Shown in pieces: positions 20,013 through 40,797 of a DNA stretch of 64,000 nt (position 1 is the first letter of the stretch; the number at the start of each line of letters is the position of its first letter). The notes under the pieces were generated by a model, which saw nothing but the letters and a program-made list of their open reading frames with translations, searched no databases and was not told the DNA's origin. The position numbers and the translations under genes are program-made. Source of the DNA: Spirochaetota bacterium. Lineage in GTDB: Bacteria; Spirochaetota; JAAYUW01; JAOAHJ01. The stretch covers positions 62,001-126,000 of the forward strand of contig JAOAHJ010000039.1 in the NCBI GenBank assembly GCA_026415295.1. Reading direction: 5' to 3'.

Positions 20013-23000
20013 ATGAAACTTATAAATAAAAGATATGAAATAATTGAACTCATTGGTGAAGGTGAGTTCGGGGCTATCTATAAAGTAAAAGACATTTATA
20101 GCAAAAACCCGGAAATAAAAGCATTAAAATTATATAATTTTGATAAAAATCGAGATATTGCAATAATTAATTTTAAATTCGAATTTATTTTTCTTAAATT
20201 TTTTCCATTACCTTTTGTACCTGAAGTTTATGATTTTAATAAAGTAAAAAATATAGATGGAAATGAAATATCTACAAATTATTATTTTTATACAATGGAA
20301 TATATTAAAAGCCTAACTTTTGAGGATTTTGTAAAAAAATATAATGAAAATACTCCTCAATATAAACAAATTAAACTTAAAATAGATTCAATCCTTCAAT
20401 ATTTACACAAAATAGGTTTATACCATGGGGATTTTAGTTTTAAAAATATTTTAATTAAAATTGATAATAATAGTTATCTACCTTTTTTTATAGATCTTGA
20501 AGAAAAATCTAATATATTATTAGATATTGAAAGGTATAAAGAATATTTCAAACAAGATTTTAATCCACCCCCTACTGACTATGAAATATTAAAACATTAT
20601 AAATTAGAAAAATTTATTAATTTATTTTTTACACATAATGTTAAATCAACTATTATTAATCTTTTTGAAAAAATTAAAAGCAAAAATAAAATAAAGATTA
20701 TAAATTTTTATAAAACAAATTATGAATGTTTTGATTTAATTAAAGGTTTCATATTTTCAATATCTCAAATTTATGAATTTATTTTTTTAGAAATAGACTT
20801 AAATGAAACTTATGAAAACAACTTAATATATTTATCAACTCAATTGAAAAAAGAAAATTATAATAGTAATATAATCAATAAAATATCTGAATTTTTAAAC
20901 AATAATATTCAAAAAGGATTTCAAAACTATTATATTTTCTTTACATCAATTTTGCAAGAAATATCTTTTTATAATAAAACCATTATTTATTTAAAAAACT
21001 ATGATTTAATAGATTTAGAAAAAGTCCAATTTGTAGATAAAATTTTAAACAATATAGAATCAAATAATTTAACAATTTTATTTAATTCATATAAATTTAA
21101 CGAAAATAATTATGAAAACATTTTATTATTTTTACCAGATAAAAATATTAATTTTGATCAAATTAAAAAAGAAATACTAACAAAATTAAATCAAATATTT
21201 TTAATAGAAAACAAATTAGATATATCTATCGATATTAATAAAATAATTCATTTTTTAAAAAACTTTGAAAATTATTTTGAAACATTAAAAAGTTCTCAAA
21301 AGATAGATTTATTTAAAGATATTAAAGACTTAGAATTAGAAAAATTTATTAAAGAAAAAAATTTTATAAATTTTTTAATTTTATTATTCAACTTAGATTC
21401 TCCATTCAATTACGAAGATATTATAAATTTTTGTTCAACAAATTTAAACATACAAAAAAATATTAGTGAAGCATATTTAAATTTATTATTAAACAAAGAG
21501 TTCATATATTTTCTTGAATATAATAAAATTCTTATAAACAAAAATAAAATAAAAATATTTATTAAAGATTATATTTATAAGGATAAAGAATTTATATTCT
21601 TTTTAATTAGCAAAATAATAGAAACATATTATAACAATTTAACTGAATTAGATATTTCAGAATATATTTATCTTTCTTATCTTTATTTATTAATCAAAGA
21701 TTTTAAAAAATCTATACAAACATTATATGAAAAAGTCTTTTTAAATATTAAATTTTATCAAAATAGGTATAATGAAAAGCTTAGTTATTTTACAGAATAC
21801 TTTAATATTAATTTAAATTTAATAGAAAAAAATTATGATAATGAAATTAATTTATTTAAATCAGAAGAAGAAAAAAACCTTTTTATATATATTATAATTC
21901 TTTCAATATATACATCTACAAGTTTAACTTTTGAAGAAAAAGAAAGAATACTAATTAAAATAAAATCAGACAATAAGATTATAAATTTTTCAAAAATTTT
22001 TGTATTAGGCAAACTTTATTTAATTAATTTAAATCCAGAAAAACTTGATAATGTATTTTCTCAATTAGAAAAAATAAAGGAGCAATTAAACCAGAATGAA
22101 ATAATATTTTATTACACCTTTATTAATGAATATTTTTATCATAAATCCGATTTTTCAAATCTAAAAAAATCAATAAATGAAGTAATTGAAAAATTCGAAA
22201 CAGAAAACGATTATGAAAATGAAAATATACCATATCTATTATGTCTATCTTATATTAACTATGGTGAATATTTTTTTAACAATAAAGATCTAGAAGCTTA
22301 CTATTTTTATAATACAAAAGCAAAAAATCTTTCTGAAAAATACAAATTTTATGATCTTTTAATTGTGACATATACAAATTTAGGTATCTACTTTTACTAT
22401 CAAAAAAACGATCCAAATAAGTTAAAAGAATTTTTTAATAAAGCATACATTCTAGCTGAAAAATTTAACATACCTAATCTTATAGCTAGAACAAATAACA
22501 ATATAGCAGCTATCTCTGATGATATTCAAGAAAAAAAATCACACTATCTTAAAGCTTTAAACTATGCTTCATATATCGAAGATAGAAAGATAGTACTGGT
22601 TTTATTGTACAATTTAAGCAAATACCTTTCACCTGGTAAAATGGAAAAATTACTTAAAAAATTCAATAAATATATATTTACCTTTAAAGAACTTGATATA
22701 GTTACTAATGAAAATTTTTTATTATCTACTATAGCTTCATATTATACCCTTTTTAGATTAGGATATGAAAATGAATTAAAGAAATATTATGATAAACTTT
22801 TAGAACTTGAAGAACCTTTTTCAAAAAATGAAAAAAATAAAAACCTTTTTTTGATAATAAAAGCTTTATATGAGTTAAAATTCCTTTATAAAGAAGAAAA
22901 AACAGTAAAAACTAAAGATTTTAATTCTACAATTAACAATAAAATTTTATTATTAAAAAATTGCATTCAAAATACATTTTCATACAATTATCAAGATATT

Positions 23001-24536
23001 TTTTACTTTGTTTTAACTTTTTTGTATAACCAAAATACAAAAGATAATTTTAGTAATTATTTTAATGAAATACTTTATGGAATAAAAGAGTTTTATAAAA
23101 CTAAAGACAAGCTGAAAGAAGATACTCTTAATATAATTAACAATATTTTTCAAAATTTAAATAATATAGACTATCTTAAAAACTTTGAATTAACAGAATT
23201 AAATAAAATTACAAAACTCGATATTCCTATCTTAGATTATTTAGCTTTAATATTAAAAAGTATAATCTATTATTTAAAAAATATGGATATTTACTTAAGA
23301 TACTTATCTTCAGCTTTATTTATATATCAAAAACAAAAGCACTACTATAAAAAAGAAGATATTATAAGTAAAACATCATGGGGTTTTTTTTATCAATTAT
23401 TAGAGAAATTTTTTAATGTAAAGATTGGAAAATTAAAAGAGAGAAAATCTTTTATAACTAATATCGATAATATTAACAATAATATTACAAAGGAAAATAT
23501 AATAATACAAAAAAATTTTATAAAACTAAATTTCAATAAGTTAGAAAATGAAATTATAAATTGTATATCTCTTGAACTTATATCTGGCTTAAAGGAATTT
23601 TCGAAAATAATAATTGAAAAATTTTATTTTGATAGGGCAATATTTTATAATTTTGATATAAAAGATAATATAGATCAAAATAAAAAATTAAAAAAAGAGT
23701 TTGTATTGTATTTTGATGAAAATCTTTATGGTTCTTCAGAACCTACATATATTTCAGAAGATGAGATTTTAAATATTAATACAATTGTTTTAAAAAAATT
23801 TAATATAAATGAAGATGAGGGTATTAATTCAACCTTAATAATCCCAATATTTGATCCAACAAAAATAAAAAATATCTTTATTACTAAAAATTCCAGAAAA
23901 AATTATTCTAACTACAATCTTCATTATCTCTATGGCTATCTATACTTCGATAAAAAAAATAATATTAAAAATAAAATAGATTATAATCTATTAAAAAATA
24001 TTCAAATCCTACTTTCTCTATTTTACTTTCAAAAAATTGAAGAAGAAAAATACCTTAAAGATTTTTTAACAAAATTTTACTTAAGAGACATATTTTATAA
24101 AAAAATTAGTAATTTTTTATATGATGAAAGAAACAAGAATATCCCTATAACTTTCCTTTATATAGATATAGATCATTTTAAAAAAGTAAATGATACATTT
24201 GGACATCAAAAAGGAGATGAGATTCTTACTAATGTTGCAAATATTATAAGAGAAAATGTACGCAGAGATGATTTAACATGTAGATTTGGAGGGGAAGAAC
24301 TTATTATTGCTTTGTTCAACTCAAAAAAAGATGATGGAATAAATATTGCAGAAAAAATAAGAATGAAAGTTCAGGATGCAAAGCTTTTAGGAGATAAGAT
24401 GAACCTAACTATAAGTATTGGAATATCAAACTATCCTGAAGATAGTAGATGGATAGAAGAACTTATTAATATTGCAGATAAAAATCTATATAAAGCTAAG
24501 GAATCTGGAAGAAACAAAGTTGTTTATAATATTTAA
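20013..24536 (+). CDS. Ser/Thr kinase-like, helical/TPR, GAF-like and GGDEF signalling protein
   Basis: A 1507-residue cytoplasmic sensor. Residues 1 to about 200 resemble a Hanks-type kinase: G-loop GEGEFGAIY (15-23), K39, HGDFSFKN (138-145) and DLE at 161-163 where DFG is usual, so activity is uncertain. About 200-1150 is helical with TPR-like repeats (clearest about 740-900); I find no Walker A, unlike the AAA-type ATPase in many such proteins. About 1190-1345 is GAF-like. Residues 1350-1507 are a GGDEF domain with GGEEL (1426-1430) and an RxxD inhibition site (RRDD), so diguanylate cyclase activity is likely. No ribosome site precedes the ATG. Stimulus unknown. Confidence 0.85.
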   Translation: MKLINKRYEIIELIGEGEFGAIYKVKDIYSKNPEIKALKLYNFDKNRDIAIINFKFEFIFLKFFPLPFVPEVYDFNKVKNIDGNEISTNYYFYTMEYIKSLTFEDFVKKYNENTPQYKQIKLKIDSILQYLHKIGLYHGDFSFKNILIKIDNNSYLPFFIDLEEKSNILLDIERYKEYFKQDFNPPPTDYEILKHYKLEKFINLFFTHNVKSTIINLFEKIKSKNKIKIINFYKTNYECFDLIKGFIFSISQIYEFIFLEIDLNETYENNLIYLSTQLKKENYNSNIINKISEFLNNNIQKGFQNYYIFFTSILQEISFYNKTIIYLKNYDLIDLEKVQFVDKILNNIESNNLTILFNSYKFNENNYENILLFLPDKNINFDQIKKEILTKLNQIFLIENKLDISIDINKIIHFLKNFENYFETLKSSQKIDLFKDIKDLELEKFIKEKNFINFLILLFNLDSPFNYEDIINFCSTNLNIQKNISEAYLNLLLNKEFIYFLEYNKILINKNKIKIFIKDYIYKDKEFIFFLISKIIETYYNNLTELDISEYIYLSYLYLLIKDFKKSIQTLYEKVFLNIKFYQNRYNEKLSYFTEYFNINLNLIEKNYDNEINLFKSEEEKNLFIYIIILSIYTSTSLTFEEKERILIKIKSDNKIINFSKIFVLGKLYLINLNPEKLDNVFSQLEKIKEQLNQNEIIFYYTFINEYFYHKSDFSNLKKSINEVIEKFETENDYENENIPYLLCLSYINYGEYFFNNKDLEAYYFYNTKAKNLSEKYKFYDLLIVTYTNLGIYFYYQKNDPNKLKEFFNKAYILAEKFNIPNLIARTNNNIAAISDDIQEKKSHYLKALNYASYIEDRKIVLVLLYNLSKYLSPGKMEKLLKKFNKYIFTFKELDIVTNENFLLSTIASYYTLFRLGYENELKKYYDKLLELEEPFSKNEKNKNLFLIIKALYELKFLYKEEKTVKTKDFNSTINNKILLLKNCIQNTFSYNYQDIFYFVLTFLYNQNTKDNFSNYFNEILYGIKEFYKTKDKLKEDTLNIINNIFQNLNNIDYLKNFELTELNKITKLDIPILDYLALILKSIIYYLKNMDIYLRYLSSALFIYQKQKHYYKKEDIISKTSWGFFYQLLEKFFNVKIGKLKERKSFITNIDNINNNITKENIIIQKNFIKLNFNKLENEIINCISLELISGLKEFSKIIIEKFYFDRAIFYNFDIKDNIDQNKKLKKEFVLYFDENLYGSSEPTYISEDEILNINTIVLKKFNINEDEGINSTLIIPIFDPTKIKNIFITKNSRKNYSNYNLHYLYGYLYFDKKNNIKNKIDYNLLKNIQILLSLFYFQKIEEEKYLKDFLTKFYLRDIFYKKISNFLYDERNKNIPITFLYIDIDHFKKVNDTFGHQKGDEILTNVANIIRENVRRDDLTCRFGGEELIIALFNSKKDDGINIAEKIRMKVQDAKLLGDKMNLTISIGISNYPEDSRWIEELINIADKNLYKAKESGRNKVVYNI

Positions 24537-24720: not shown

Positions 24721-25395
24721 ATGGATTTTATTAAAGTTTTAAATTTATCAAAAACTTATAAAACTGGTTCTCAAGAAGTCAAAGCCCTAAGAAATATTAA
24801 CCTTGATATAAATAAAGGAGATTTTATTAGTATAGTTGGGCCTTCTGGTTCAGGTAAAACAACTTTATTAAATTTACTTGGATGTATAGATATACCTGAT
24901 TCAGGAAAATACTATTTTTTAGACAATGAATTAACTTCATTTAATAAAGAAAAACTGACTCTTTTAAGAAGAGAAAAATTTGGGTTTATTTTTCAGAATT
25001 TTAACCTTATTAAGGTTTTAAATGTTTTTGAAAATGTTGCTATAACTCTTGAATTATTAAACTTAAAGAAACATGAAATCGAAGAAAAAGTTCATAATAT
25101 TCTTAAAGAAACAAAATTATCTGGTCTTGAAAACAGGCTTCCAAATGAACTTTCAGGTGGCCAACAACAAAGAGTAGCTATTGCTAGAGCACTTGTTAAG
25201 AACCCTGTGGTTGTATTTGCTGATGAGCCAACCGCAAACCTTGATCATAAAACTGGAGCAGAAATAGTAACACTTATGAAAGAACTAAATGAAAAATACG
25301 GTACAACATTTATTTTCTCAACTCATGATTCTAAAATAATGGAATTGGCAAAGAAGATAATTTATCTTGAAGATGGAGAAATAATTAAAAACTAA
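24721..25395 (+). CDS. LolD/MacB-type ABC transporter ATP-binding protein
   Basis: A 224-residue ATPase with Walker A GPSGSGKTT, Q-loop FQNFN, signature LSGGQQQRVAIARAL, Walker B VVFADEPTANLD and H-loop STHD. The ADEPTANLD form and short length place it in the LolD/MacB/FtsE group, which powers mechanotransmission rather than simple import. It opens an operon with two FtsX-like permeases, a LolA-like protein, a beta-barrel candidate and a TetR regulator. The ribosome site is GAGGAG. Confidence 0.93.
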   Translation: MDFIKVLNLSKTYKTGSQEVKALRNINLDINKGDFISIVGPSGSGKTTLLNLLGCIDIPDSGKYYFLDNELTSFNKEKLTLLRREKFGFIFQNFNLIKVLNVFENVAITLELLNLKKHEIEEKVHNILKETKLSGLENRLPNELSGGQQQRVAIARALVKNPVVVFADEPTANLDHKTGAEIVTLMKELNEKYGTTFIFSTHDSKIMELAKKIIYLEDGEIIKN

Positions 25396-25456: not shown

Positions 25457-26743
25457 ATGAAAAAAAATGTCGGAAAAACAGAAGAAAAAGTAAGCATTTC
25501 TAAAATATTCTTAGTTAAATTTGCTTTTAAAAATATATTGCAATATAAACAGAGAACAATTTTAACTTTTCTTGTATTAACTTTTGGAATAACTTTTTAT
25601 ATTTTAATGGATGGACTTATGACAGGTTTTGAGCATGATACTGTTAAACTTCTTATAAGTCTACAAACTGGAAATATTAAAATTTTAAGCAAAGATTTTA
25701 ATGAAGAAGAAGTTTTTAAAATATTTAAGATAGAAAATTATAATGATATAATTGAATATTTAAGCAAACAAAATTTTGTTGAAGGTATAACAAAAAGAAT
25801 AAGATTCTTTGGATTAATAGAGTCTAAAACTATTTCAACTCAAGTAATTGTTTTAGGAATCAATTTTAACGATGATAATAAAGTTTTCGATTTCATTAAA
25901 TATATATACAAAAACTATGATATCCAAAAAAATCCAATTTATCAAACTATTCCCAAAATATATCTTGGGAAAAACATTATTAATGAACTGGAATTAAAAG
26001 AAGGTGATCCTGTAATTTTAACAACAAAAACATCAGATGGAATGTTTAACTCTGAAGAATTTATTCTTGCAGGATATATAGATTCTCCAGATATTTCTAT
26101 AAATACTAATTTTGTTGTTATTGATTATTTAGAAGCTCAAAACCTAGTACAAATAGATTCTCCAACTGAAATTTGCATAAAAACTGACAATTTTAAAAAA
26201 GATAAATTATATATCAAAAACCTTAGCAAATATTTAAAAGATTCTTTTGTCACATATTGGGCAGAAGAAGGAAGAGATATACTTGAATTAACTAAAACAA
26301 AATCAAAATTTACAAATATTTTTATTTTTTTTATAATTATTATTGCTATTATTGGAATTGTAAATACTATGACTTTATCTGTTTATCAAAAGATAACTGA
26401 GATAGGAACTTTAAAAGCAATTGGTTTTAATGAAAAAGAAATAAGTTATCTTTTTACATTTGAGAGTTTATTAATAGCTTCTCTTGGGACTCTATCAGGG
26501 ATTTTCTTTGGACTTATTCTTAATTATTTCCCTTACAAATATGGAATGGATCTTTCCAAAATGATGGACGTTAATACTCTTGGTTCTTTCAATACTCAAA
26601 GCATAATTTATTCAAGCTATAATATTAAAAATATATTTATATCATTTTTTCTTGGGATCTTTTTTTCTTATATTTCAACAAAATCTATAGTTAAAAAAGC
26701 ATCAAAGTTAGAACCTGCTGTTGCTTTAAGAAAAATACAATAA
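25457..26743 (+). CDS. LolC/LolE-type FtsX-like permease 1
   Basis: A 428-residue membrane protein with one N-terminal TM helix (about 30-52), a periplasmic domain of some 220 residues and three C-terminal helices, the layout of LolC/LolE/MacB permeases. The conserved coupling segment EIGTLKAIGF lies just after TM2. Together with the ATPase it should move lipoproteins or another amphiphile from the outer face of the inner membrane. The ribosome site is AGAGG. It is a paralogue of the next gene, with the same length and layout. Confidence 0.9.
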   Translation: MKKNVGKTEEKVSISKIFLVKFAFKNILQYKQRTILTFLVLTFGITFYILMDGLMTGFEHDTVKLLISLQTGNIKILSKDFNEEEVFKIFKIENYNDIIEYLSKQNFVEGITKRIRFFGLIESKTISTQVIVLGINFNDDNKVFDFIKYIYKNYDIQKNPIYQTIPKIYLGKNIINELELKEGDPVILTTKTSDGMFNSEEFILAGYIDSPDISINTNFVVIDYLEAQNLVQIDSPTEICIKTDNFKKDKLYIKNLSKYLKDSFVTYWAEEGRDILELTKTKSKFTNIFIFFIIIIAIIGIVNTMTLSVYQKITEIGTLKAIGFNEKEISYLFTFESLLIASLGTLSGIFFGLILNYFPYKYGMDLSKMMDVNTLGSFNTQSIIYSSYNIKNIFISFFLGIFFSYISTKSIVKKASKLEPAVALRKIQ

Positions 26744-26785: not shown

Positions 26786-28072
26786 ATGAAATTTATAAAA
26801 ATACCTTATAGATATCTTTTTATTAACAAAAAAAGAACATTTATTTCTGCACTATCTATTTTCGTATCATGCATTATTGTAGCTATCGGTTATGGGTGGA
26901 TAGATGGAATGATAAACAATATGATAAATTCTTACAAAAATATTCAAACAGGAAATATAAGGGTAGTTAATAAAGATTTTATTAAATTTGAAAAATTTAA
27001 ACCAATTGAATATCTAATAGAAGATACAACAAATATAAAAGAAAAGATAAACAAATTTTTAGATAAATTTTTTTCGAATTATCCAAAAAAAATTAGAAAG
27101 TTTGAAATAATAGAAAGATTGAAATTTAATGCTTTTGCTGGGTATAAAAATAACTCATCAATAGCACAAATTTTTGCTTTAGAATTTAATAAAGAAAAAG
27201 AAAGATTTAAGTTTGAAAAAAATCTTATATATGGCTCAAGCACAATAAATAGTTCAGAAATACTTATTGCGGAAGGATTAGCAAAAAAGTTAAATGTTTA
27301 TCAAAATGATTCTATAATAATATCAGCTCAAACATTTAGTGGTGGATTAAATGCAAGAAAATTCAAAATAAAAGGAATAGTAAAAATTACTCTATCTAAT
27401 CTAAATAAAAGCGCAATATTTATGAATTTAGAAGATGCAAAAACTCTCATAAAGTTACCAGAGAATACAGGAACAGAAATCTTAATATTTTTTGATAATG
27501 CTTTTACAGAAATCTTAACAAAAGAATTAAAAAAATATATTTCGGACAATAAAAATGAATTTCCATTTAACTTTTTAGAAAACTATGCTTTACACCATTG
27601 ATTTGACAATATGGGGCTTCTATATAATCCTTATGATTTAGTTAAAAAAGTAATGTATATAGTTTATTTTTTTATAGTTCTTCTGGCATCCTTTGTAATT
27701 ATTAATTCAATGATGATGAATATTTTTGAAAGAATTAGTGAAATAGGAACATTAAAAGCAATAGGCTTTTCTGATAAACAAATATTTTTAATTCATATTA
27801 TAGAAGGAACAATGATGGGAGCTATTGGGGGAATTCCTGGTTCATTTTTCGGTTACTTCTTAACATATATTATGAACTATTATGGCTTAGACTTTAGTTA
27901 TGTGATGTCAAATATAGATTTTCTAATTGATACTATTATAAAACCCAAAGCATCAATTGATGTTTTAATTTTGACAATCATCTTAAGCATAATAGCTCCA
28001 GCTTTAGCTACTATGATTCCTTCAAACTATGCTAAGAAATTAAATCCAAATGAAGCATTAAAACACTTATAA
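26786..28072 (+). pseudogene. LolC/LolE-type FtsX-like permease 2, interrupted by one in-frame TGA
   Basis: One continuous frame of 429 codons, the same length as the preceding paralogue, except for TGA at 27599-27601 (codon 272). Both sides are homologous to permease 1. The first part has the N-terminal TM and periplasmic domain; the second has three TM helices and EIGTLKAIGF. An ungapped alignment back from that motif places the TGA on the Trp of TYWAEEG in permease 1. Nonsense mutation, sequence error or UGA read as Trp are all possible. Reinitiation at ATG 27611 would give a 153-residue piece lacking TM1. ATG 26786 is chosen for its GGAGA site. Confidence 0.8.
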
Positions 28073-28181: not shown

Positions 28182-28937
28182 ATGAAAAAAATAGAGTGTT
28201 TACTTAAAATATTAACTTTACTTTTTTTTGTGTTTATAACTTCTATTTTTGCAATAGAAGAAAACAGTGAAGCTTTAGAAATACTTAATAAAATTGACAA
28301 TAATAAGGTCTTTGAATCTGTTTATTATAAAGCCATTTTAGAAATAAAAAGAGGCAAAAATACTTTATTAAAAAGTTTTGAGGTCTATGCTAAAAACAAA
28401 AATTTTTTTATAAAATTTACAAATAAAGAGGATTATAATGTAAAATATCTTAAAAAAGACGGAAATCTTATAATTTATTTCCCTGAAGCAAATGATATAT
28501 TAACAATATCAGGATCAATGTTAAAGCAGTCATTTATGGGATCAGATCTAACTTATGAAGATATTACCTCAAATGATAAACTAATTGACCTTTATAAAAT
28601 CGAAGAATATAAAAATATTACTATTGATAATAAAAATTATATTTTTATTTCATTGATTGCAAAAGTTAAAAATGTTCCATATTTTAAACAAGAGCTTTTT
28701 ATAGATCCACAAAATTTAACAATTCAAAAAATAAATTATTTTGATTTGGCTTTAAGAAAAATAAAAGAAATACACTTTTTAAAATATGAAAATTTTAAAA
28801 ATAGAATTTACCCTACAGAAACAATAATTAAAGATCCAAAAAGAGAAGATTATTATTCTAAATTTAAGATACTTGAAGCAAAATTTGATATAAATATAGA
28901 TGAATCAATTTTTACAATACAAAATTTATACAAATAA
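28182..28937 (+). CDS. LolA-like outer-membrane lipoprotein-sorting protein
   Basis: A 251-residue exported protein with a signal peptide (about residues 1-24, cleavage near IFA). The mature beta-rich body carries FPEANDILTISGSMLKQSF and MGSDLTYEDIT, which mark the LolA-like family that includes TP0789 of Treponema pallidum. These proteins bind lipid or lipoprotein in a half-barrel and are usually next to MacB/Lol-type ABC genes, as here. It probably carries cargo from the two-permease ABC complex to the outer membrane. AAGGAG precedes the ATG. Confidence 0.85.
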   Translation: MKKIECLLKILTLLFFVFITSIFAIEENSEALEILNKIDNNKVFESVYYKAILEIKRGKNTLLKSFEVYAKNKNFFIKFTNKEDYNVKYLKKDGNLIIYFPEANDILTISGSMLKQSFMGSDLTYEDITSNDKLIDLYKIEEYKNITIDNKNYIFISLIAKVKNVPYFKQELFIDPQNLTIQKINYFDLALRKIKEIHFLKYENFKNRIYPTETIIKDPKREDYYSKFKILEAKFDINIDESIFTIQNLYK

Positions 28938-28978: not shown

Positions 28979-30205
28979 ATGAAATGCTTAAACAAAAAAT
29001 CATTTTTAATAAATTTTGCTTTTAATTTTATTTTTTATTTAATTATGTTTTTATTTTTTATCATTTTTATTCTAAACTCAACAAAATTAGAAGTTTATGC
29101 CGATGAAACTTTCATCTCTTTTGAAACAAATTTTTTTTCATCATTGTTTTTTTCAGATAATTTAATAGAAATTTCAAAGCAAAATATCAATATAGATTTT
29201 ATAAAAATATTAAATGATTATATTAAAATCGGTTTTGGAGAAAATATTAAAATTAAACTATTTTATAAAACGGATTTTTATAAATTTAGCTCAATATTTA
29301 ATATATATTTCTATCAAAACTACTTTGAGAAAATTAATAATAAAGATATTTTATTTATTTTAGACCAATTTTATATATCTTTTATATTTAACAACTTTAT
29401 TAGTGAATTTGGAATCTTACCCAATTATTCTATCAATCTTTATAGTTTAGATATTTTTTCTCCTGTAAAACTAAGAACTTTATTAAATTCTAATTATAAC
29501 AATAGCTTAAATAATTTCGCTTTTAATTTTATCTTAACTTATAATTTATTTAAACAAAATATAAAAATTATCTTTTTTGATTTTAATAATTTTATAATTT
29601 ATTCAAAAAGTTCTCTAACTAATTTAAATTTTGCTTTTAATTATTTCACTGTCTGGGACAATATATTTAAACATTTTAGAACAGGGTTTGAAATAAAGCT
29701 TAATTTGCTTATAAATATTATAATTTCTTATCAATATCATTATTTTAAAAATAGAGTAAACTCTTTAGAAAATATTAAGAAAGGATATGAACTTCTTTTA
29801 TCCTTTTATTATAATTTAGACAATACTACTTTAAATTTTCAAATCCTAAATACAGATTTAAATTACACAAATGAAGAATTTCATAAAATCTATTTTTATC
29901 TTATATCAAACAATAAAGAAAATATAAATAGAAATATTTTAATTACTAAAGATGATATAATTTTTATAATATCAATCGATTATAATCCAGATCCATTTTT
30001 ATTTTTAAAAATCGGAACTTTCACAGATAAAGAACTATCTAAATATATCCTTTTTACAATTATAAATTTAAATTTGCTTAATCAATTGAAACTTGAATTA
30101 AATTTCAGCTTTTATCCAAAATTTGATCCAAATTTAATTGATCAATTTTTTATCTCCCATCCTTTTTATTTAATAACAGGAATTTTAATTAAAATAAATT
30201 TTTAA
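28979..30205 (+). CDS. Exported protein, probable outer-membrane beta-barrel
   Basis: A 408-residue protein with a long hydrophobic N-terminus (about residues 10-33) ending near VYADET. After it come many alternating polar/hydrophobic strands of about 10 residues rich in F, Y, N and I, and a C-terminal aromatic residue (ILIKINF). These are the usual signs of an outer-membrane beta-barrel. No homologous family is recognised. The position between the LolA-like and TetR genes suggests it is the terminal outer-membrane part or a cargo of the pathway. The ribosome site is poor and the start is uncertain. Confidence 0.55.
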   Translation: MKCLNKKSFLINFAFNFIFYLIMFLFFIIFILNSTKLEVYADETFISFETNFFSSLFFSDNLIEISKQNINIDFIKILNDYIKIGFGENIKIKLFYKTDFYKFSSIFNIYFYQNYFEKINNKDILFILDQFYISFIFNNFISEFGILPNYSINLYSLDIFSPVKLRTLLNSNYNNSLNNFAFNFILTYNLFKQNIKIIFFDFNNFIIYSKSSLTNLNFAFNYFTVWDNIFKHFRTGFEIKLNLLINIIISYQYHYFKNRVNSLENIKKGYELLLSFYYNLDNTTLNFQILNTDLNYTNEEFHKIYFYLISNNKENINRNILITKDDIIFIISIDYNPDPFLFLKIGTFTDKELSKYILFTIINLNLLNQLKLELNFSFYPKFDPNLIDQFFISHPFYLITGILIKINF

Positions 30206-30238: not shown

Positions 30239-30949
30239 ATGATTTTACAAAAATTAAATAATTTAATCGAAACATTTATAGACTATAAAAACAAAGAAGG
30301 TTTCAATGATGATAAATTTGTAAAGTTTAATAAAATTAATAAATTAAAAAAAGAAAAAATAATACTATGTGCAATTGAAGAATTTAACAGCAAAAATTAC
30401 GATGAAGCTTCAACAAATAGTATTATAAAAAAAGCATCAATTGGAAAAGGAATGTTATTTTATTATTTTAAATCAAAAGAAAATCTCTTTAAATATTTAA
30501 TTTTCTACTCTATTGAAAAATTTCTTTATCTTATAAAAGAAAAGTTTGAAAATATAAATAATTTTAATAATTTGGGGTTTGAAGAAAAACTTTTTTTATT
30601 ATTTAAAATTAAAATAGAAATTTATAGAAAAAATTTATTAATAACAAATTTTATAATTAAATATTTCTCAAATCCACCAGAAATATTAAAATACTTCATA
30701 TGTAAACTATATAATTTTATGATATTTCTTTCGCCAGACTTTATAATAGATGAAGAAATAGTTGGGAAAATTAAAGAAAACATTGATATAAACAAGGTAA
30801 AAGAAACCATCTTATTTGTAATAAAGGGTTTTGAAGAGAAAATACTTTTAAATGTCAAAAATTTACCTGCTTATGATATAAATTTTGAAAAAATATCAAA
30901 AGAATTTATAGAGTATTTAACTATTCTAAGAAAAGGTTTTGAAAAATAA
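30239..30949 (+). CDS. TetR family transcriptional regulator
   Basis: A 236-residue protein with an N-terminal TetR DNA-binding domain (about residues 37-85: IILCAIEEF...STNSIIKKASIGKGMLFYYFKSKENLF) and a helical ligand domain after it. The helix-turn-helix starts later than usual because of about 35 extra charged residues, so translation may begin further in. It closes the Lol-type operon and probably represses it through TAGACCATTTGGTCTA at 24639-24654. The inducer is unknown, perhaps a lipid or amphiphile. Confidence 0.85.
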   Translation: MILQKLNNLIETFIDYKNKEGFNDDKFVKFNKINKLKKEKIILCAIEEFNSKNYDEASTNSIIKKASIGKGMLFYYFKSKENLFKYLIFYSIEKFLYLIKEKFENINNFNNLGFEEKLFLLFKIKIEIYRKNLLITNFIIKYFSNPPEILKYFICKLYNFMIFLSPDFIIDEEIVGKIKENIDINKVKETILFVIKGFEEKILLNVKNLPAYDINFEKISKEFIEYLTILRKGFEK

Positions 30950-31044: not shown

Positions 31045-32922
31045 TTATAAAAACTTTAATCCTGATTCTCGAATTATGCTCTTTTCTAACCCATTAATAA
31101 ACACCTCTTTTTTACCAAAAATAAAAACTCTTTTTTTTGCCCTTGTTATTGCTGTATATATAATTTGCTTATTTAAGTAAGGAGAATTTAATTCAGTTGG
31201 TAAAACAAAATAAACATCATCATAAGAACTTCCTTGACTTTTGTGAACTGTCAAGCAAAAAGAGTAATTCCACTTTTTTATTAGATTTATATTAATAAAT
31301 CTTCCATCTTCAGACATAAAAAAATTTAAAAGATTCCCATCTTTTTTAATTTGAACAATTAAACCTGTATCTCCATTAAAGAGATTATTTTCATAGTCGT
31401 TTTCAAGAATAATAACAGGTTTTAATTCAAAATTATCTTTGTAATAATTTATAAAAATATCATTAATATTTTCTGTTCCTAAAAAACCTCTATTAGTGCA
31501 AACTAATAAAGCAAATTTAGAAATAACACTATCTTTTACTGCATTTAGTCTATCTAAGTTATCATTTAATAAGTTATCATTTAATATTGAATAATTAAAA
31601 TTATTGCTATAATTTGAAACAATAAAATCTATAAGTTTATATATAAAAGCTTCATTTTTAGCTTCTAAAAAATATATACCATTTTCAAAATCTTCAATTG
31701 TAAAACCTTTGTTAATATCTTTCAAAGGTAAAAATCTTATTTTTTTAAAAATATTTTCTAAATGTTTTTCTTTTTCACTATTAAATAAGAAATTTAAATC
31801 ATTACTTTTTTCTTTTAACTTGGTATCATTAAATTTTAATATATCTTCAGAAATATTTTTAATAGAATCAACAAATCTAAATTGTCCTTCTAAATTTACT
31901 TTAAAAACATTCTTACTTTCAATAATATCTCCAAATACATTCCCACAATCTACAGAAGGAAGTTGATCTTTATCTCCAAGAATAACAAGCTTTGTCAATT
32001 CAGAAATAGCCTGAATAAGAGAAGAAAAAAGGTATAGATCGATCATCGAAGCTTCATCAACTATTATTAGGTCTGCCTTTAATTTACAATCTTTATTAAA
32101 ATTAAAAGATCCTTTCTCTGAATTAAATCCTAAAAGTTTATGAATCGAAGTTCCAGAAACAAAATTTGAATTATTATATATATTGTTTTCTTCTAAGATT
32201 TTTCTTACCCTATAATCTAATAAGTTCCATATTCTTAAAGACAAAACATTAGCTCCCTTACCTGTCGGAGCACAAATAAAAATTTCTGGAATTCTTCCAT
32301 GATCATTGTAATATTTTATAAAATAAAAATTAAATATTTTAGATGCCAAAGTTGTTTTTCCACTGCCAGGTTTCCCTGTTATTAATACAAAACTATTCTC
32401 AATTATTTGATCAATTATATTATTTATATTTTTTTCATCCCTTTGTAAATTAATATATATTTGGTTATCTTTATTCCTTCTTACTCTTTTTTTAATGCTT
32501 TCTTTAATTTCATTTTCATTAACATAGTCCCCACATCTATAAAAAAGAAACTTTTTTTCCCCCTCATAATTTAGTTTTTTTAATATAAATGGAGTTATTT
32601 TATCTAAACTTTTCTGTTCTTCATCCACATATGTTACAAAGTCAGATAATAGATTTTTAAAATAATTATTATTAAAAAAATAATTTAAAAAATCTGGATA
32701 ATTTGATAGGTCAATACAAGTTGAACCATTGTAGATATTTATCAAAAGATTTCCTACAACATTAACAAAACTATTAATAAGTCTTAAATCAATATAATTT
32801 GAAAAATTTTCTTTTTCGTATTTATTGATAATTTCCTCACAAATATCAGAAATAATTAACTCTTGAAATTTATAAGGAAATTCTAAATTAATAAATTTAC
32901 AAATATCAAAATAATTTTTCAT
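31045..32922 (-). CDS. recD: RecBCD exonuclease V alpha subunit (RecD helicase)
   Basis: A 625-residue 5'-3' helicase of superfamily 1B. Motifs: Walker A TGKPGSGKTTLA (about residue 190), Walker B LIVDEASMID, GDKDQLPSVDCGNVFG, the SH3-inserted C-terminal core and TVHKSQGSSYDDVYF near the end, followed by YTAITRAKKR. Length matches RecD (E. coli 608). It is the last gene of recC-recB-recD, 81 bases after recB, and converges on the TetR gene. Confidence 0.94.
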   Translation of the reverse strand: MKNYFDICKFINLEFPYKFQELIISDICEEIINKYEKENFSNYIDLRLINSFVNVVGNLLINIYNGSTCIDLSNYPDFLNYFFNNNYFKNLLSDFVTYVDEEQKSLDKITPFILKKLNYEGEKKFLFYRCGDYVNENEIKESIKKRVRRNKDNQIYINLQRDEKNINNIIDQIIENSFVLITGKPGSGKTTLASKIFNFYFIKYYNDHGRIPEIFICAPTGKGANVLSLRIWNLLDYRVRKILEENNIYNNSNFVSGTSIHKLLGFNSEKGSFNFNKDCKLKADLIIVDEASMIDLYLFSSLIQAISELTKLVILGDKDQLPSVDCGNVFGDIIESKNVFKVNLEGQFRFVDSIKNISEDILKFNDTKLKEKSNDLNFLFNSEKEKHLENIFKKIRFLPLKDINKGFTIEDFENGIYFLEAKNEAFIYKLIDFIVSNYSNNFNYSILNDNLLNDNLDRLNAVKDSVISKFALLVCTNRGFLGTENINDIFINYYKDNFELKPVIILENDYENNLFNGDTGLIVQIKKDGNLLNFFMSEDGRFININLIKKWNYSFCLTVHKSQGSSYDDVYFVLPTELNSPYLNKQIIYTAITRAKKRVFIFGKKEVFINGLEKSIIRESGLKFL

Positions 32923-33003: not shown

Positions 33004-36000
33004 TTAATTAAATACATTTTCAATATCTTCAACAAAATTATATAATCTTTCAAAGTTAGGATTTAAAAAAACTACACCATTTCTCCTTTTCTCTACCTCT
33101 CTTGTATAAATGTAAAAAATACCTCCAAAATAATTATTATATATTTCAAAAAATTTTTCCCTATTTAATTTTAAATCCTGAAATGAAAATATATATATAT
33201 TATTTAATGATAAAATATATTTAAAAAAAGAAAATTCATATATTTTTGCTTGGAGAAAATAGTTTTCTTCAAAATGTTTATTAATATCTATGCCCTCAAC
33301 AATGTTTGTTTTCCAATCTGCTATAAAATATTTTAATTTGCCATTTATATTTACCCTAAAAATTAAATCAATAAACCCACTTATAAAACCATTCTTTATT
33401 TTAAAATAAAATTCAAGCTCATTAACTCGATCCATTTTTTTAATATTCTTAATATAAAAATTTGGTTCCAATATTTTTAAATTTAAAACAGATTTTATCA
33501 TTGACTTAGTATTTTCTTGAAATATTTTCTGTTGTTCATATTTATAGTCACTAAAGTATTTACTAATCTTCAATGATATTATATTTTCAAGTTCTTTATT
33601 ATTTATTTTATCATCATAATCAACATCATAATCTATCTCCTCCATTAGTTCATGAAACATGGATCCAGTTTTCTCACCTTTTGGTAACAGATTTGTTTCT
33701 TCTAAATTAAAATCTTTAATATAAATTTCATCATTAAGTTCTTTTAGTATTTTGTCAATATTGTATATGTTTTTATTCTTTTCTTTTTCATGAAGACTAG
33801 AAAAAGAAGTTAGTCTTAGACTTTTCCTATTTAGTTCCAAAATATAGTTTCTATAGTTTTCTAAACTAAAATCTATAGAAACATAATTTTCTTGAATTTT
33901 ATTATCAAATTTATTGTAAGGAGATTTATCTTCAAAAATTAAAGAATTTTCTATATTTTCTGATCTACAAGGAATAAAAGCCCCTTCTAAATTTTTATCA
34001 AATAAAATGTCTAAAGTCCCAAGATATTCTGAAAAACTCATTTTTGCTTTTTTTTCTTCAATATCTTTAATTGATTTATTATTTTTCAATGGATCAAAAA
34101 ATATGGGAATATAGGCAAGAAAAATAGCCCTTGTGATAGCTACATAATGAAGTCTTCTATACTCTTCATATAATAATTTATTAAGATACATTTCTTTATT
34201 TTCTTTTAATATTTTATACTCTATAACAACATTTCCATTTTTATAATAAAAAGGATAATTTTTTTTATTATTTATTTTCTTAATTGCCCCAAAATCAAAG
34301 ACAATTGGAAACTCAAGACCCTTTGAAGCATGTATAGTTAAAATATTTATCTTATCCTCTTCTGAATAGTTTCTAAAAAGATCTTCTTCAATTTCACTTT
34401 CTTTGCTTTTAAAAATCATAGCTAAGAATTTATTTTTTAGAGAAAAGATATCTAGATTTTCACTATAAGCTATCTTCTCTATATTTTCAATTATATGCCT
34501 ATAGTTGATAATTATATTTTTTGCCCTTTTGCTTCCATACTTTCTAACTATGTTTTTTTCAACATCCATTAATTTAAAAATACGGGATAAAAAGTTCCAT
34601 TGTAAAAAAATTTTATCCAGTTTTTTAACTTCATCAATAAACTTTAATAAATTTTCATTTTCATTAATTATTTCTTCAATATTAATATTTTCAACATCAT
34701 CTATAAAAAAAAGATCAGAAAGTATAATTTTTTTTAGTTTTTCAATATTATCTGGCTCTGATATATAATCTATTAAAAAGTAAATATTAATACTCTCAAC
34801 ACTCTGATATAGAAGATTTTTCTTATAAAAAGTAGAATCTATTCCAAACTTATCATAAAGATAGTTTTGTATTTTTATTGCATCTTTTCTTGAAGATACA
34901 AGTATAGCTATTTCTGATGGTTTAATATATCTGTAATCCTTTTCATTTTCTCTTTTTATTAAATATTTGCCTCTTTTTGTTATTCTTATAATTTCTTCTC
35001 CAATAAAATCTAAAAATAACTTCGTTTTATCAATACTTGTAATCTTATCTATTGCTCCTGCACCTTCATTATTAATCTTTTCTATTTTAACAAAATTTAC
35101 TCCAAAATATTTCTCTTTATTATTAGATGTTTTAATAGAAAAATCATAAATTTTAGCTTTAATGCCCTTTTTTATTCGATACTATTCTATATTTAAATCA
35201 TTTTTACTAAAACTAATATTTTTTTCTTTTTCATTCTTAATATTTAAATTAAAATAATCAGAAGACGAAAATATTTTATTACAAACATCTATGAATTCTG
35301 CAGTAGATCTAAAATTTTCATCTAATTTATATATTTTACCATTCTTTGCTATCTCATTTTTAGCTTTAAAATATGTATTTAAATCAGCATTTCTAAAAAA
35401 ATAGATAGATTGTTTTGGATCACCTATTAAAATAACCCTATTATTATTTTCTGAACTAATAAAAATTTTTCTAAAAATTTCCCATTGTATTGGATCTGTA
35501 TCCTGAAATTCATCGATAAATACGTACTTAAATTTATTTCTTAACTTATCTATTAATATACTAGAATTATTAATAGCATTAAATACATAATGAATCATAT
35601 CATTAAAAGATAATTTTGAACATTTTTTCTTATATTCTAATGATAGTTGAAAAACATTTATACTAATATAATTGACGAGTGAGTTTAATATATCTGTATA
35701 TAAAAAGTAAAAAAACAAAAAGATTTTGTTCTGAAGATACCTTGGAAAACTATCTTTTACTTTAAATTCTAAAATAGAAAAAAAATCATGAATATTTATA
35801 TCTCTTTCTATAGCTTCAATTCTAGATATTAAGTCAACAATATTTTTTTTTATATTTCCCAAGTTTTGATTATTTGAAAAACTCCCATCATCATCTTGTA
35901 ACATTGGATAAATTTCCTCTATATAGTTATTAATTTTATTAATAATATCATTAAATTTATCTTTTAATTCTAAAACAAATTCATTAAAATTATATAAGAT

Positions 36001-36807
36001 TGTATATTCTCTATCTTGATTATTTTGCTTTAAATCAGCAAAAAACTCTTTTATTTTATTGAATATTATCTTTATTAAATCAATTTTATTACCTATATCC
36101 TTTAATAGTTCATATTTCTCATCACTATTTTCAAATATATATTTTCTAAATTTATATGGGAAAATATAGGATATATTATAAATATAATTTAAAATTTTGT
36201 ATATTTTTTTTTCTGTGCTTGAGTCAACAATCAAATTATTATTTTCAAAAGTACACTGTCCAAAAGATAAAAAAGAAAAAATATCTTCTGCAAAATTGAC
36301 CACTAATTTTTTATCAGAATTATTTAATATTTTACCTATATCTTCGAATAAACCTTTTCTTAAATATGAAAAAAAAGAATTTTTAATAATTTCAGAATCA
36401 TCTATAATTTCATTTGTAAAATTTAACCCTATTTCAAAAGCATAATTGCTAATAAGGTAATTACAGAATCCATGAATAGTATTAATTAAAAACTTATTTA
36501 TATTATTTAAAGCATTATTAATAAGTTTCTTTTTTCTTAATAAAATTTCTTTTTCAAAATCAATATTATTACGAATTTCTTCATCTATCTCTTTTAACTT
36601 TAATGATAAATCATTATAAATTCTTTCTTTTATTTCACCAGCTGCCTTTTCAGTAAAGGTAACAATAATTATTTCTTCTGGCAAAGCATGAGCATTTTCA
36701 ATCAAGTTTGCCACAAGCTTTACAATAGTATAAGTTTTACCAGTTCCAGCCGATGCTTCTATTAGAACATTTTTTGACAAGATATCTTCACTTATTTTAT
36801 CAATCAT
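33004..36807 (-). pseudogene. recB: RecBCD exonuclease V beta subunit (RecB), interrupted by one in-frame TAG
   Basis: The frame is open for 1268 codons from ATG 36807 to TAA at 33004 except for TAG at 35182-35184 (codon 542). Before it: Walker A IEASAGTGKTYT, DEFQDTDPIQW, GDPKQSIYFFRNADL and LDENFRS. After it: the rest of the 2A/2B region, LTIHASKGLEFP and YVAITRA helicase motifs, and the RecB nuclease (GFIDLIF...IADWKTN). About 204 codons downstream of the stop remain open without an ATG until 34569. Total length fits RecB (E. coli 1180). As written, only a 541-residue fragment lacking half the motor and the nuclease would be made. Confidence 0.85.
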
Positions 36808-36900: not shown

Positions 36901-39900
36901 TTAAATACTAAGTTCTATTATTTTATCAATAGTATCAAATATTCTCAAATATCTATTTTTTAATTTCTCAAAATCAAGCCCATCTTTTGAATTTTTTAGC
37001 AGTAAACTTTCTATTTCCAGAAAATACCCCTCATTTATTTCATCAAATTCTTCAAAGTCATAATCTATTTTTTCTTTATAAATATTTAGTATCTCTTCTA
37101 TATTAATTTTATTTGAATCTTGAGGGTTATAACTATCTAATACATTATTAAACAAAACATTAAAATTAATTTCATAAATTTCAGAATTTTTTATATCATT
37201 TAGAAAACTAATTAATAATCCATTTTCTTTATTTTCAAAATAATCTAAAATTTTATTTTTATTAAAAATAAAAGCTTGTAAACAAACAATCTTATCTTTG
37301 TTAACTAAACTATTTGAATTATTTATAAAAAAATAATAAATTGATATTTCATTCTTATCAAATACCTTAAAAAGTAGATAAGCATAAAAAATATTTTTAA
37401 TAAAACTTTTCAAATAGAATAAATTTTTTTTCAAATTTTTAAAAACTTTAAGCTCAAAGTATAAATTTTCTTTTGTAAAAGGGAACTTGCTATTAATAAA
37501 ATCAAAGAAAATAATAATTTTTTTTAATTCTTTTTCTATAATTAAAAAATTTTGAACTTTTCCCTTAATATAAATATCTTCAAAAACAATAGGATTATAT
37601 CTATACTTAAAATCTGGGTCTAGGTTGTCTATAATAAACTCCTTAACTAGCTCAAATCTATCAAATTTTAAGTTATACTGATAATTATTAGACTTATTTA
37701 ATTCACTATCAATTAATATTAATTTATTAAATAAATCAAAATTTATAAAAGAATAAAAGTTTATAAAGATTTTCTTTAATAAATATCTTAGTTTTTTATA
37801 AATAAAGTTTCTAAAGAAGTTATTAGGTAATTTAAAATTAAAATTTCCACTTTCTATTTTTTCTTTTATATAAAGGAAGAATTCATCAAAATATCTTTTT
37901 TCAAAATTTTTATAAAAATCAAATTTAAAAATATATAAATCTTCTATTATTGATTTATTAAAATCATTTTTACTTTTTTTATTTTTTATAAAATAAAATA
38001 GTTCGACAAAAATTAATTTTTCCATTTCCTCAAAAGAATATCTATCTTCATAAAAAGGCTCAATATCATCATCTATTAATTCTATTGGTTTTTCTACATT
38101 TATATTATAGATATTTTTCAATAAAACTCTTTTTGGATTTAAAATGTAATTAAATAGATCATTTAAATAAAATTCTTTTCTGGATAAACCATATCCTTCT
38201 ATATTAAATAAATCATTATTTTTCTCTTCTATTGATTCTTTTATTAATTCTTCTTTTAATTTAATATTTTCTTCTAAAACTAAATAAAAAATATCAGTAT
38301 AATTTTTTAAAATAAAATCTTTATAATTTTTTTCTTCAATATATTTTGCATAATTTTCATCTATTAAAAATGGAACCTCAAATAAAATAAATTTGTCTAT
38401 AATAATATTCTCTTCTAAATAACTTATAAAATCTTTTAAAACATTTGATGGATATAAAATTCTATCTCTTTCTAAATCTTTTGAAACATATGAAAGATAT
38501 ATTTTATTTATACACAAAAAAAAAGTTTCTATAAAATTATAATTATCAATTTCTTCTTTTAACATATAATTATTATTATATATTCTTAAATCAAAAATGT
38601 CGTTTATAAAAATTGAAGGATATATATCTTCATTTAAGCCAATAAGATAAATTATTTTAAAAGGAAGAGGTCTCATAGGATTTATTTGAGAGATTGTTAC
38701 TCCATCTATAATATAATTTCCTTTTATAACTTCTATTTTTTGATATTCACTCTTTATAATTTTTTTTATAAGATCTACATTAATAGATTTATCTAATATA
38801 TTTCCATAATTTTTAAATTCTATAAGAATATTTTCAAAACTACTCTTTATTTGTTTCTCAATACCCTCATCTTCATTAAAATCAAAAAAATTTTCATTTA
38901 GTTTTTTAAATATATTTACCCAATCTTCAAAGGATATTGCTTCCCTGGCTTCTTTAAGCAATCTAAACAGAGATTCAAAAAAAGTATTAAATTTTTCAAA
39001 AATTTCTGGATTTTTTAGAAAGTAAACTATATAAGGAGGATATTTTTCAAAATAGCCTGAAATCTTATAACTATTAGGAGATATTAAATTGTATAAATAA
39101 CCACTTCTAATTCTTTTCAATCCATAACTCCATGTAAATAAAAGATCTTCAAAATATGAATATTTCCTTTTATCTTCTATATCATATGAATAAAAAATAT
39201 CTAAAGATTTGATAACTTTTATTATATTTACAATATCATTATATGTGAATTTATATTTGTTCATCACAATAGGATTTATTAAGAATTCGATTATTTCATT
39301 TCTTCTTAAATCAGATTCAATTAAATTTAAAAAACTAATTATAGCCTTGTAAAAATTACTTTCAGAATCAGCTTTTAAATCACTAATATTATATTTTATA
39401 AGTCCATAATAATCAAAAACATTTTTTATTTCATAAATATATGACTTAATATCAGTGACAAGGATAGCTATTTCATTTAAGTTTAAATCTTTATCATTTA
39501 TTAAATTATAAATTATACTATTATAAACAGTTTCTATTTCTCTTTTTTTTGAATGAGCACAAAAAATTTGAATAGAATTATCCTGCTCTATTTTTGAAAA
39601 TTTTTCAATATTTAATTCTCCTAAAATAGATAATTTAAAATAATCCAATAAACTATTTTTTTTTAATTGACTGTATTTGAAAGCAATCTCAACCTTTTCT
39701 TTATTATTAGAAAAAATTGAAAATTGATTTCTAAGATTTTTATAAAAACTCAAAAAATATTTTTTAATAAACTCTTTGCTATCACTATAAATTGAAAAAT
39801 ACTTTTTAAAAACTTTATCAAACTGGGTAAGAGTAACATTTGATTCTTCTAATAGCTTTTCCTCAAAGTTTTTTTCTAAAGTTTTTTCATTATGATAATC

Positions 39901-40797
39901 AACAAAACTCTGATAAAGACTAAAATACGAAGGATAAAAAAGTGAATAAAATTTTACATTTATAAAATTTGAAATAAATAATAAAAAATCAGTATGAAAT
40001 TCTGAAATATGTGAAAATCCGAAATAAAAAACCGGATCATATTCTAAAATACTTATCCCTAAATTTTGAGAAATAGAATTTTCATTTTTTATAAATTTAT
40101 CAAAATAATTTTTTGCTATTTTATAAAGATCATAAAAAAAGCAATAAGATATCTCTTCTTTGTTAAATTTTTCTTTAAAAATAATATTTAATTCATCAAA
40201 TACTTTTTTATAAATTGCTTCTATTTCTCTTACTATATAATTTTTACTACTTATTTTATCAAATAAAAACTCTTTTTTTTCCCACCATTTAATAAGGTCT
40301 GGAAAATGGTAAAAATATTCTTTTAAATAAAAAGCTAATTTTTCAGCAATATCCCATATATAATAAAACTTATTTTTATCATTGGCATAGTTTTTTATAA
40401 TTTTGAAATTTTCATCATCATATTTTTCTAATATAATATTTAATATAAAAAGGGATAAATAAATAAAATTATTTGAATAATTCAATACTTTAATATTTCT
40501 AGAAATTTTAATATCTTCTTTTTTATTTAATTTTTTTATATTATTTTTTTCCTCTATTCCTTTTATTAATAACATTAAAAAATTAAATATAAACTCTTCA
40601 AAACGAAAAAAATCTATAAATGTACTTATTCCTATATCTTGACTCAACTTTATTTGAATATATTTCTTTAAATTTCTATTTGGAACTACTAACTTAATTC
40701 TATTTAGTATATCTTTTTTATTATAGTTTTTTATATCATTTTTAAGTTGATCTATTAAATCATTAATATCGTTTGAAAATATTAATTTTAAACCCAT
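36901..40797 (-). CDS. recC: RecBCD exonuclease V gamma subunit (RecC)
   Basis: A 1298-residue inactivated helicase-like protein: VPNRNLKKYIQIKLSQDIGIST at the N-terminus, EIAILVTDIKSYIYEI in the middle, RPLPFKIIYLIGLNEDIYP as the RecC signature near residue 735, and a nuclease-like C-terminal fold. RecC splits duplex DNA and, in Enterobacteria, scans for Chi. It is longer than E. coli RecC (1122). It starts four bases after the AlkD-like gene, so translation is probably coupled, and precedes recB by 93 bases. Confidence 0.92.
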   Translation of the reverse strand: MGLKLIFSNDINDLIDQLKNDIKNYNKKDILNRIKLVVPNRNLKKYIQIKLSQDIGISTFIDFFRFEEFIFNFLMLLIKGIEEKNNIKKLNKKEDIKISRNIKVLNYSNNFIYLSLFILNIILEKYDDENFKIIKNYANDKNKFYYIWDIAEKLAFYLKEYFYHFPDLIKWWEKKEFLFDKISSKNYIVREIEAIYKKVFDELNIIFKEKFNKEEISYCFFYDLYKIAKNYFDKFIKNENSISQNLGISILEYDPVFYFGFSHISEFHTDFLLFISNFINVKFYSLFYPSYFSLYQSFVDYHNEKTLEKNFEEKLLEESNVTLTQFDKVFKKYFSIYSDSKEFIKKYFLSFYKNLRNQFSIFSNNKEKVEIAFKYSQLKKNSLLDYFKLSILGELNIEKFSKIEQDNSIQIFCAHSKKREIETVYNSIIYNLINDKDLNLNEIAILVTDIKSYIYEIKNVFDYYGLIKYNISDLKADSESNFYKAIISFLNLIESDLRRNEIIEFLINPIVMNKYKFTYNDIVNIIKVIKSLDIFYSYDIEDKRKYSYFEDLLFTWSYGLKRIRSGYLYNLISPNSYKISGYFEKYPPYIVYFLKNPEIFEKFNTFFESLFRLLKEAREAISFEDWVNIFKKLNENFFDFNEDEGIEKQIKSSFENILIEFKNYGNILDKSINVDLIKKIIKSEYQKIEVIKGNYIIDGVTISQINPMRPLPFKIIYLIGLNEDIYPSIFINDIFDLRIYNNNYMLKEEIDNYNFIETFFLCINKIYLSYVSKDLERDRILYPSNVLKDFISYLEENIIIDKFILFEVPFLIDENYAKYIEEKNYKDFILKNYTDIFYLVLEENIKLKEELIKESIEEKNNDLFNIEGYGLSRKEFYLNDLFNYILNPKRVLLKNIYNINVEKPIELIDDDIEPFYEDRYSFEEMEKLIFVELFYFIKNKKSKNDFNKSIIEDLYIFKFDFYKNFEKRYFDEFFLYIKEKIESGNFNFKLPNNFFRNFIYKKLRYLLKKIFINFYSFINFDLFNKLILIDSELNKSNNYQYNLKFDRFELVKEFIIDNLDPDFKYRYNPIVFEDIYIKGKVQNFLIIEKELKKIIIFFDFINSKFPFTKENLYFELKVFKNLKKNLFYLKSFIKNIFYAYLLFKVFDKNEISIYYFFINNSNSLVNKDKIVCLQAFIFNKNKILDYFENKENGLLISFLNDIKNSEIYEINFNVLFNNVLDSYNPQDSNKINIEEILNIYKEKIDYDFEEFDEINEGYFLEIESLLLKNSKDGLDFEKLKNRYLRIFDTIDKIIELSI

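Follow-up and report, generated by a model that had tools for sequence, protein, structure and literature searches.

One in-frame TGA at a conserved aromatic column in a Lol-type permease gene of a Spirochaetota genome

The Lol-like operon and its interrupted permease gene

The window analyzed here is a stretch of 64,000 nucleotides from a Spirochaetota bacterium, and it carries on its forward strand an operon related to the Lol lipoprotein transporters. The first gene encodes a LolD/MacB-type ABC ATPase (24721-25395; Pfam ABC_tran, 2.2e-32; NCBIfam LolD_lipo_ex, 6e-66, below the cut-off of that model). It is followed by two FtsX/LolCE-type permease genes in tandem: permease 1 (25457-26743; Pfam FtsX; lolCE, 2.8e-29, below cut-off), which is intact, and permease 2 (26786-28072), which is interrupted once. 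The remaining genes encode a LolA-like periplasmic carrier (28182-28937; Pfam LolA_like, 6.8e-35), a 408-aa protein of unknown family (28979-30205; no Pfam match) and a TetR-type regulator (30239-30949; Pfam TetR_N, 1.5e-10). Ahead of the operon, on the same strand, lies the gene (20013-24536) for a protein of 1507 residues, which has a GGDEF domain at its C-terminus and an N-terminus weakly resembling protein kinases. An identical gene order was found in one relative belonging to the same taxonomic order, with the ATPase, permease 1, an intact permease 2, the LolA-like carrier and a 372-aa protein whose gene occupies the place of that for the 408-aa protein.

The operon shares with LolCDE and LolFD the combination of FtsX-like permeases, an ATPase and a LolA-like carrier, and the nearest solved relatives of permease 2 are LolF (9w37) and LolC/LolE (7arh). 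However, it differs from these systems by its tandem permeases placed after the ATPase, by its LolA-like and TetR regulator genes, and by permeases scoring below the lolCE equivalog cut-off. A separate lolF-lolD pair, the arrangement in which the Lol transporter commonly occurs (PMC11784454), is present elsewhere in the genome on contig C16. The operon of the window is therefore probably an accessory Lol-like exporter, and its loss would probably be tolerable.

The only interruption of the permease 2 frame is a TGA at 27599-27601 (codon 272), followed by a T at position +4. When this codon is read through, both permeases are 428 codons long, in agreement with the equal length stated in the earlier note. 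Read in this way, permease 2 matches Pfam FtsX above the cut-off and aligns with the lolCE profile over residues 6-426 (5.4e-32; 111 bits, for an equivalog cut-off of 362 bits). The downstream piece (27611-28072, 153 codons) contains the whole FtsX C-terminal domain (FtsX, 1.2e-20). Its ATG, at 27611, lies 10 nt past the TGA without a Shine-Dalgarno sequence, and such a sequence was present at four of the six other starts inspected in the same stretch. The spacing reported in the earlier note was also recovered without gaps: 47 residues separate the TGA from the E of EIGTLKAIG, exactly as they separate the Trp of TYWAEEG from the same motif in permease 1. The observation of the TGA thus holds.

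The residue expected at the TGA and the state of the gene

In order to keep the alignment from being pulled towards Trp, the TGA was masked as X before permease 2 was aligned with 155 homologue ORFs, taken from relatives both inside and outside the phylum. At the masked column we found Trp in 92 ORFs, Tyr in 34, Phe in 18, Leu in four, Ile in three, Pro in two, and Thr and Val in one each, so that an aromatic residue (W, Y or F) occupied the column in 144 of 155. An ungapped count, starting at an invariant Tyr (Y280) and running backwards, placed F, F, P and Y at the site in the four closest homologues. In the lolF-like permease of this genome, TWMDYMG stands where permease 2 has stop-FDNMG. 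A solved LolF also has a Trp at the aligned place, in an alignment that was not blind since the query carried Trp there. The proposal that the stop falls on the Trp of the paralogue is thus correct as to spacing, but the column is better described as conserved aromatic, mostly Trp. The homology supports an ancestral Trp codon turned into TGA, and TGG very probably stood there originally.

We then compared conservation on either side of the stop. Of the residues conserved at 90% or above, permease 2 keeps 14 of 14 downstream of the TGA and four of eight upstream; overall, it ranks low among its homologues for conserved residues kept. Neither a second stop nor a frameshift was found in permease 2, no homologue was split at the site among the 155 full-length ORFs, and none of the matches listed for relatives contained a stop. 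A single-protein scan of genome contigs did not reveal any close relative of permease 2, and in an alignment scan of genome contigs all its relatives were at 42% identity or below. As in a nonsense lesion or a young pseudogene, the homologues are intact across the site and an ancestral sense codon can be deduced. Since the downstream half has not decayed and the homologues are unsplit, the stop is either recent or not real.

Decoding of UGA and other in-frame stops in the genome

The assembly (2.1 Mb, 39 contigs, 96% complete, 22% GC; relatives within Spirochaetota) was searched for the components that decode UGA. The only tRNA-Trp found among 36 tRNA matches has a CCA anticodon. The same 36 matches contained neither a suppressor anticodon nor the tRNA-Trp with UCA anticodon that would be expected if UGA were read as Trp; they did not contain a tRNA-Ala either, indicating that some tRNA genes are missing from the assembly. 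Classical suppressor changes in tRNA-Trp affect positions 9 and 24, and A9 and G24 were both unaltered here. A tRNA-Trp CCA with a 4-bp anticodon stem has been shown to read UGA (PMC13092985), whereas the stem of the present tRNA (27-31/39-43, TCGGT/ACCGA) has the normal 5 bp. The prfB gene, whose loss or damage would be expected under reassignment, encodes an intact RF2 (450 bits, above cut-off) with GGQ and SPF motifs. This gene, on contig C27, is one uninterrupted frame and lacks the internal stop at which many bacteria use programmed frameshifting.

Stop codon usage was determined on stretches totalling 744 kb (about 35% of the genome), where TGA terminates 47 of 497 ORFs of at least 150 codons. 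The scarcity of UGA as a stop noticed in the earlier note is true within the window, but UGA is an ordinary stop in the genome. Among 317 positions at which an aligned relative has Trp, the genome itself has Trp (TGG) in 120 cases and a stop in one, the TGA of permease 2. The earlier reading that TGG encodes Trp elsewhere and that full reassignment is not indicated is thus borne out, and no further TGA was found at a conserved Trp site among these positions.

To survey in-frame stops more broadly, proteins of relatives were aligned to the 744 kb, giving 48,942 homologous codons, of which 5,955 were in the window. After removal by eye of antisense frames and gene junctions, two genuine in-frame stops were left, both in the window. 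A mechanical listing of in-frame stops over the 744 kb, cleaned likewise, yielded no others. No frameshift was detected in the sampled codons, no in-frame stop appeared in the approximately 43,000 located outside the window, and none of 51 ABC-domain matches genome-wide had an internal stop. The second stop is a TAG at 35182-35184, splitting a recB-like UvrD helicase-nuclease gene on the reverse strand (33004-36807). The domain motifs are preserved in both halves, the nuclease motif among them, and the gene is flanked by open recC (36901-40797) and recD (31045-32922) genes in a recC-recB-recD cluster. As this stop is a TAG, reading of UGA as Trp cannot explain the split. The TGA and the TAG can both be accounted for by nonsense changes of a single base, or by errors at two bases of the consensus. 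The two stops are 7.6 kb apart; once the first is given, the second would fall within the window by chance with a probability of about 0.12, going by the fraction of tested codons that the window contributes. Their closeness is a weak hint that the sequence is faulty locally or mixes strains, as against two mutations having arisen independently.

These results do not support recoding of UGA. What permease 2 has in common with UGA-to-Trp recoding, either of the genetic code 4 type or by a 4-bp-stem tRNA-Trp CCA, is a UGA at a Trp position; it differs in that no tRNA-Trp UCA and no 4-bp stem were found, RF2 is present and TGA is used as a stop. Full reassignment of UGA to Trp was rejected on the basis of the CCA tRNA-Trp, the intact RF2, the use of TGA as a stop and the TGG codons at Trp sites. 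Reading of UGA as selenocysteine was likewise rejected, as neither tRNA-Sec nor SelB gave a match above cut-off. The RNA fold around the TGA was no better than that of shuffled sequence (z = -0.01), and a structured read-through element after the TGA was rejected.

Origin of the in-frame TGA

Among the options offered by the earlier note, nonsense mutation and sequence error remain plausible, the first on balance probable and the second a substantial but lesser possibility, while UGA read as Trp is disfavoured by the CCA tRNA, RF2 and stop usage. On balance, we consider that the TGA arose recently, as a nonsense change of a single base. A TGG codon for Trp at the conserved aromatic position would have changed to TGA, a change favoured in a genome of 22% GC, and RF2 would end translation there. 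Going by the usual topology of the family, the truncated product would retain the first membrane helix and the periplasmic domain and lack the last three helices, and permease 2 would probably be inactive in cells with the TGA sequence. The placement of the gene in a probably accessory operon, in a genome that has a separate lolF-lolD pair elsewhere, would make this loss tolerable. The preservation of all 14 conserved residues downstream indicates that such a lesion would be young; however, an undamaged downstream half is equally explained by read-through or by a consensus error. As in other premature-stop lesions of accessory genes, there is one in-frame stop, the frame is otherwise intact and the homologues are unsplit. 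This interpretation supposes that the TGA base is real in the cells rather than a consensus error.

Less probable but credible is an error of the metagenome-type assembly, in its consensus or through a mixture of strains: the gene would be intact in the cells, and the TGA a wrong base or a minor variant. The state of the assembly (39 contigs, 96% complete), the undamaged downstream half of permease 2 and the nearby stop in the recB-like gene, with its halves otherwise intact and no counterpart in the other sampled codons, are consistent with such an error. However, the absence of frameshifts and of other stops in the sampled homologous codons indicates that overall base quality is good, and TGG to TGA is the change expected from mutational bias.

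Read-through of the UGA as Trp, whether inefficient or programmed, would yield some full-length permease and would account for both the conserved column and the conserved downstream half. Even though a near-cognate tRNA-Trp can read UGA in its 4-bp-stem form (PMC13092985), we regard read-through as unlikely: the tRNA-Trp has a 5-bp stem and unaltered A9 and G24, RF2 is intact, a U at position +4 lowers UGA read-through in E. coli (PMC5289835), the site lacks unusual RNA structure and is the only one of its kind found, and the TAG of the recB-like gene would need a separate explanation. Still less likely is that the TGA is kept and usefully read as Trp by the normal CCA tRNA in an otherwise standard code, with small, regulated amounts of permease as the result. 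Least likely of all is that two genes now exist, with re-initiation at 27611 and assembly of the pieces into a working permease cut between its periplasmic domain and its last three helices, for although this ATG soon follows the TGA and the break falls just ahead of the FtsX C-terminal domain, the start lacks the Shine-Dalgarno sequence seen at most other starts inspected, its Met is ancestral, being also Met in the closest homologue, and none of the 155 homologue ORFs is split.

A recent nonsense lesion in permease 2 would belong to a known kind of event, the premature stop in an accessory gene. An in-frame stop does not become evidence of recoding simply by lying on a conserved Trp; once tRNAs, release factor, stop usage and the other interrupted gene are viewed across the genome, little speaks for recoding here. 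If read-through were nevertheless found to be true by proteomics, permease 2 would represent an unusual case of UGA decoding at a single site.
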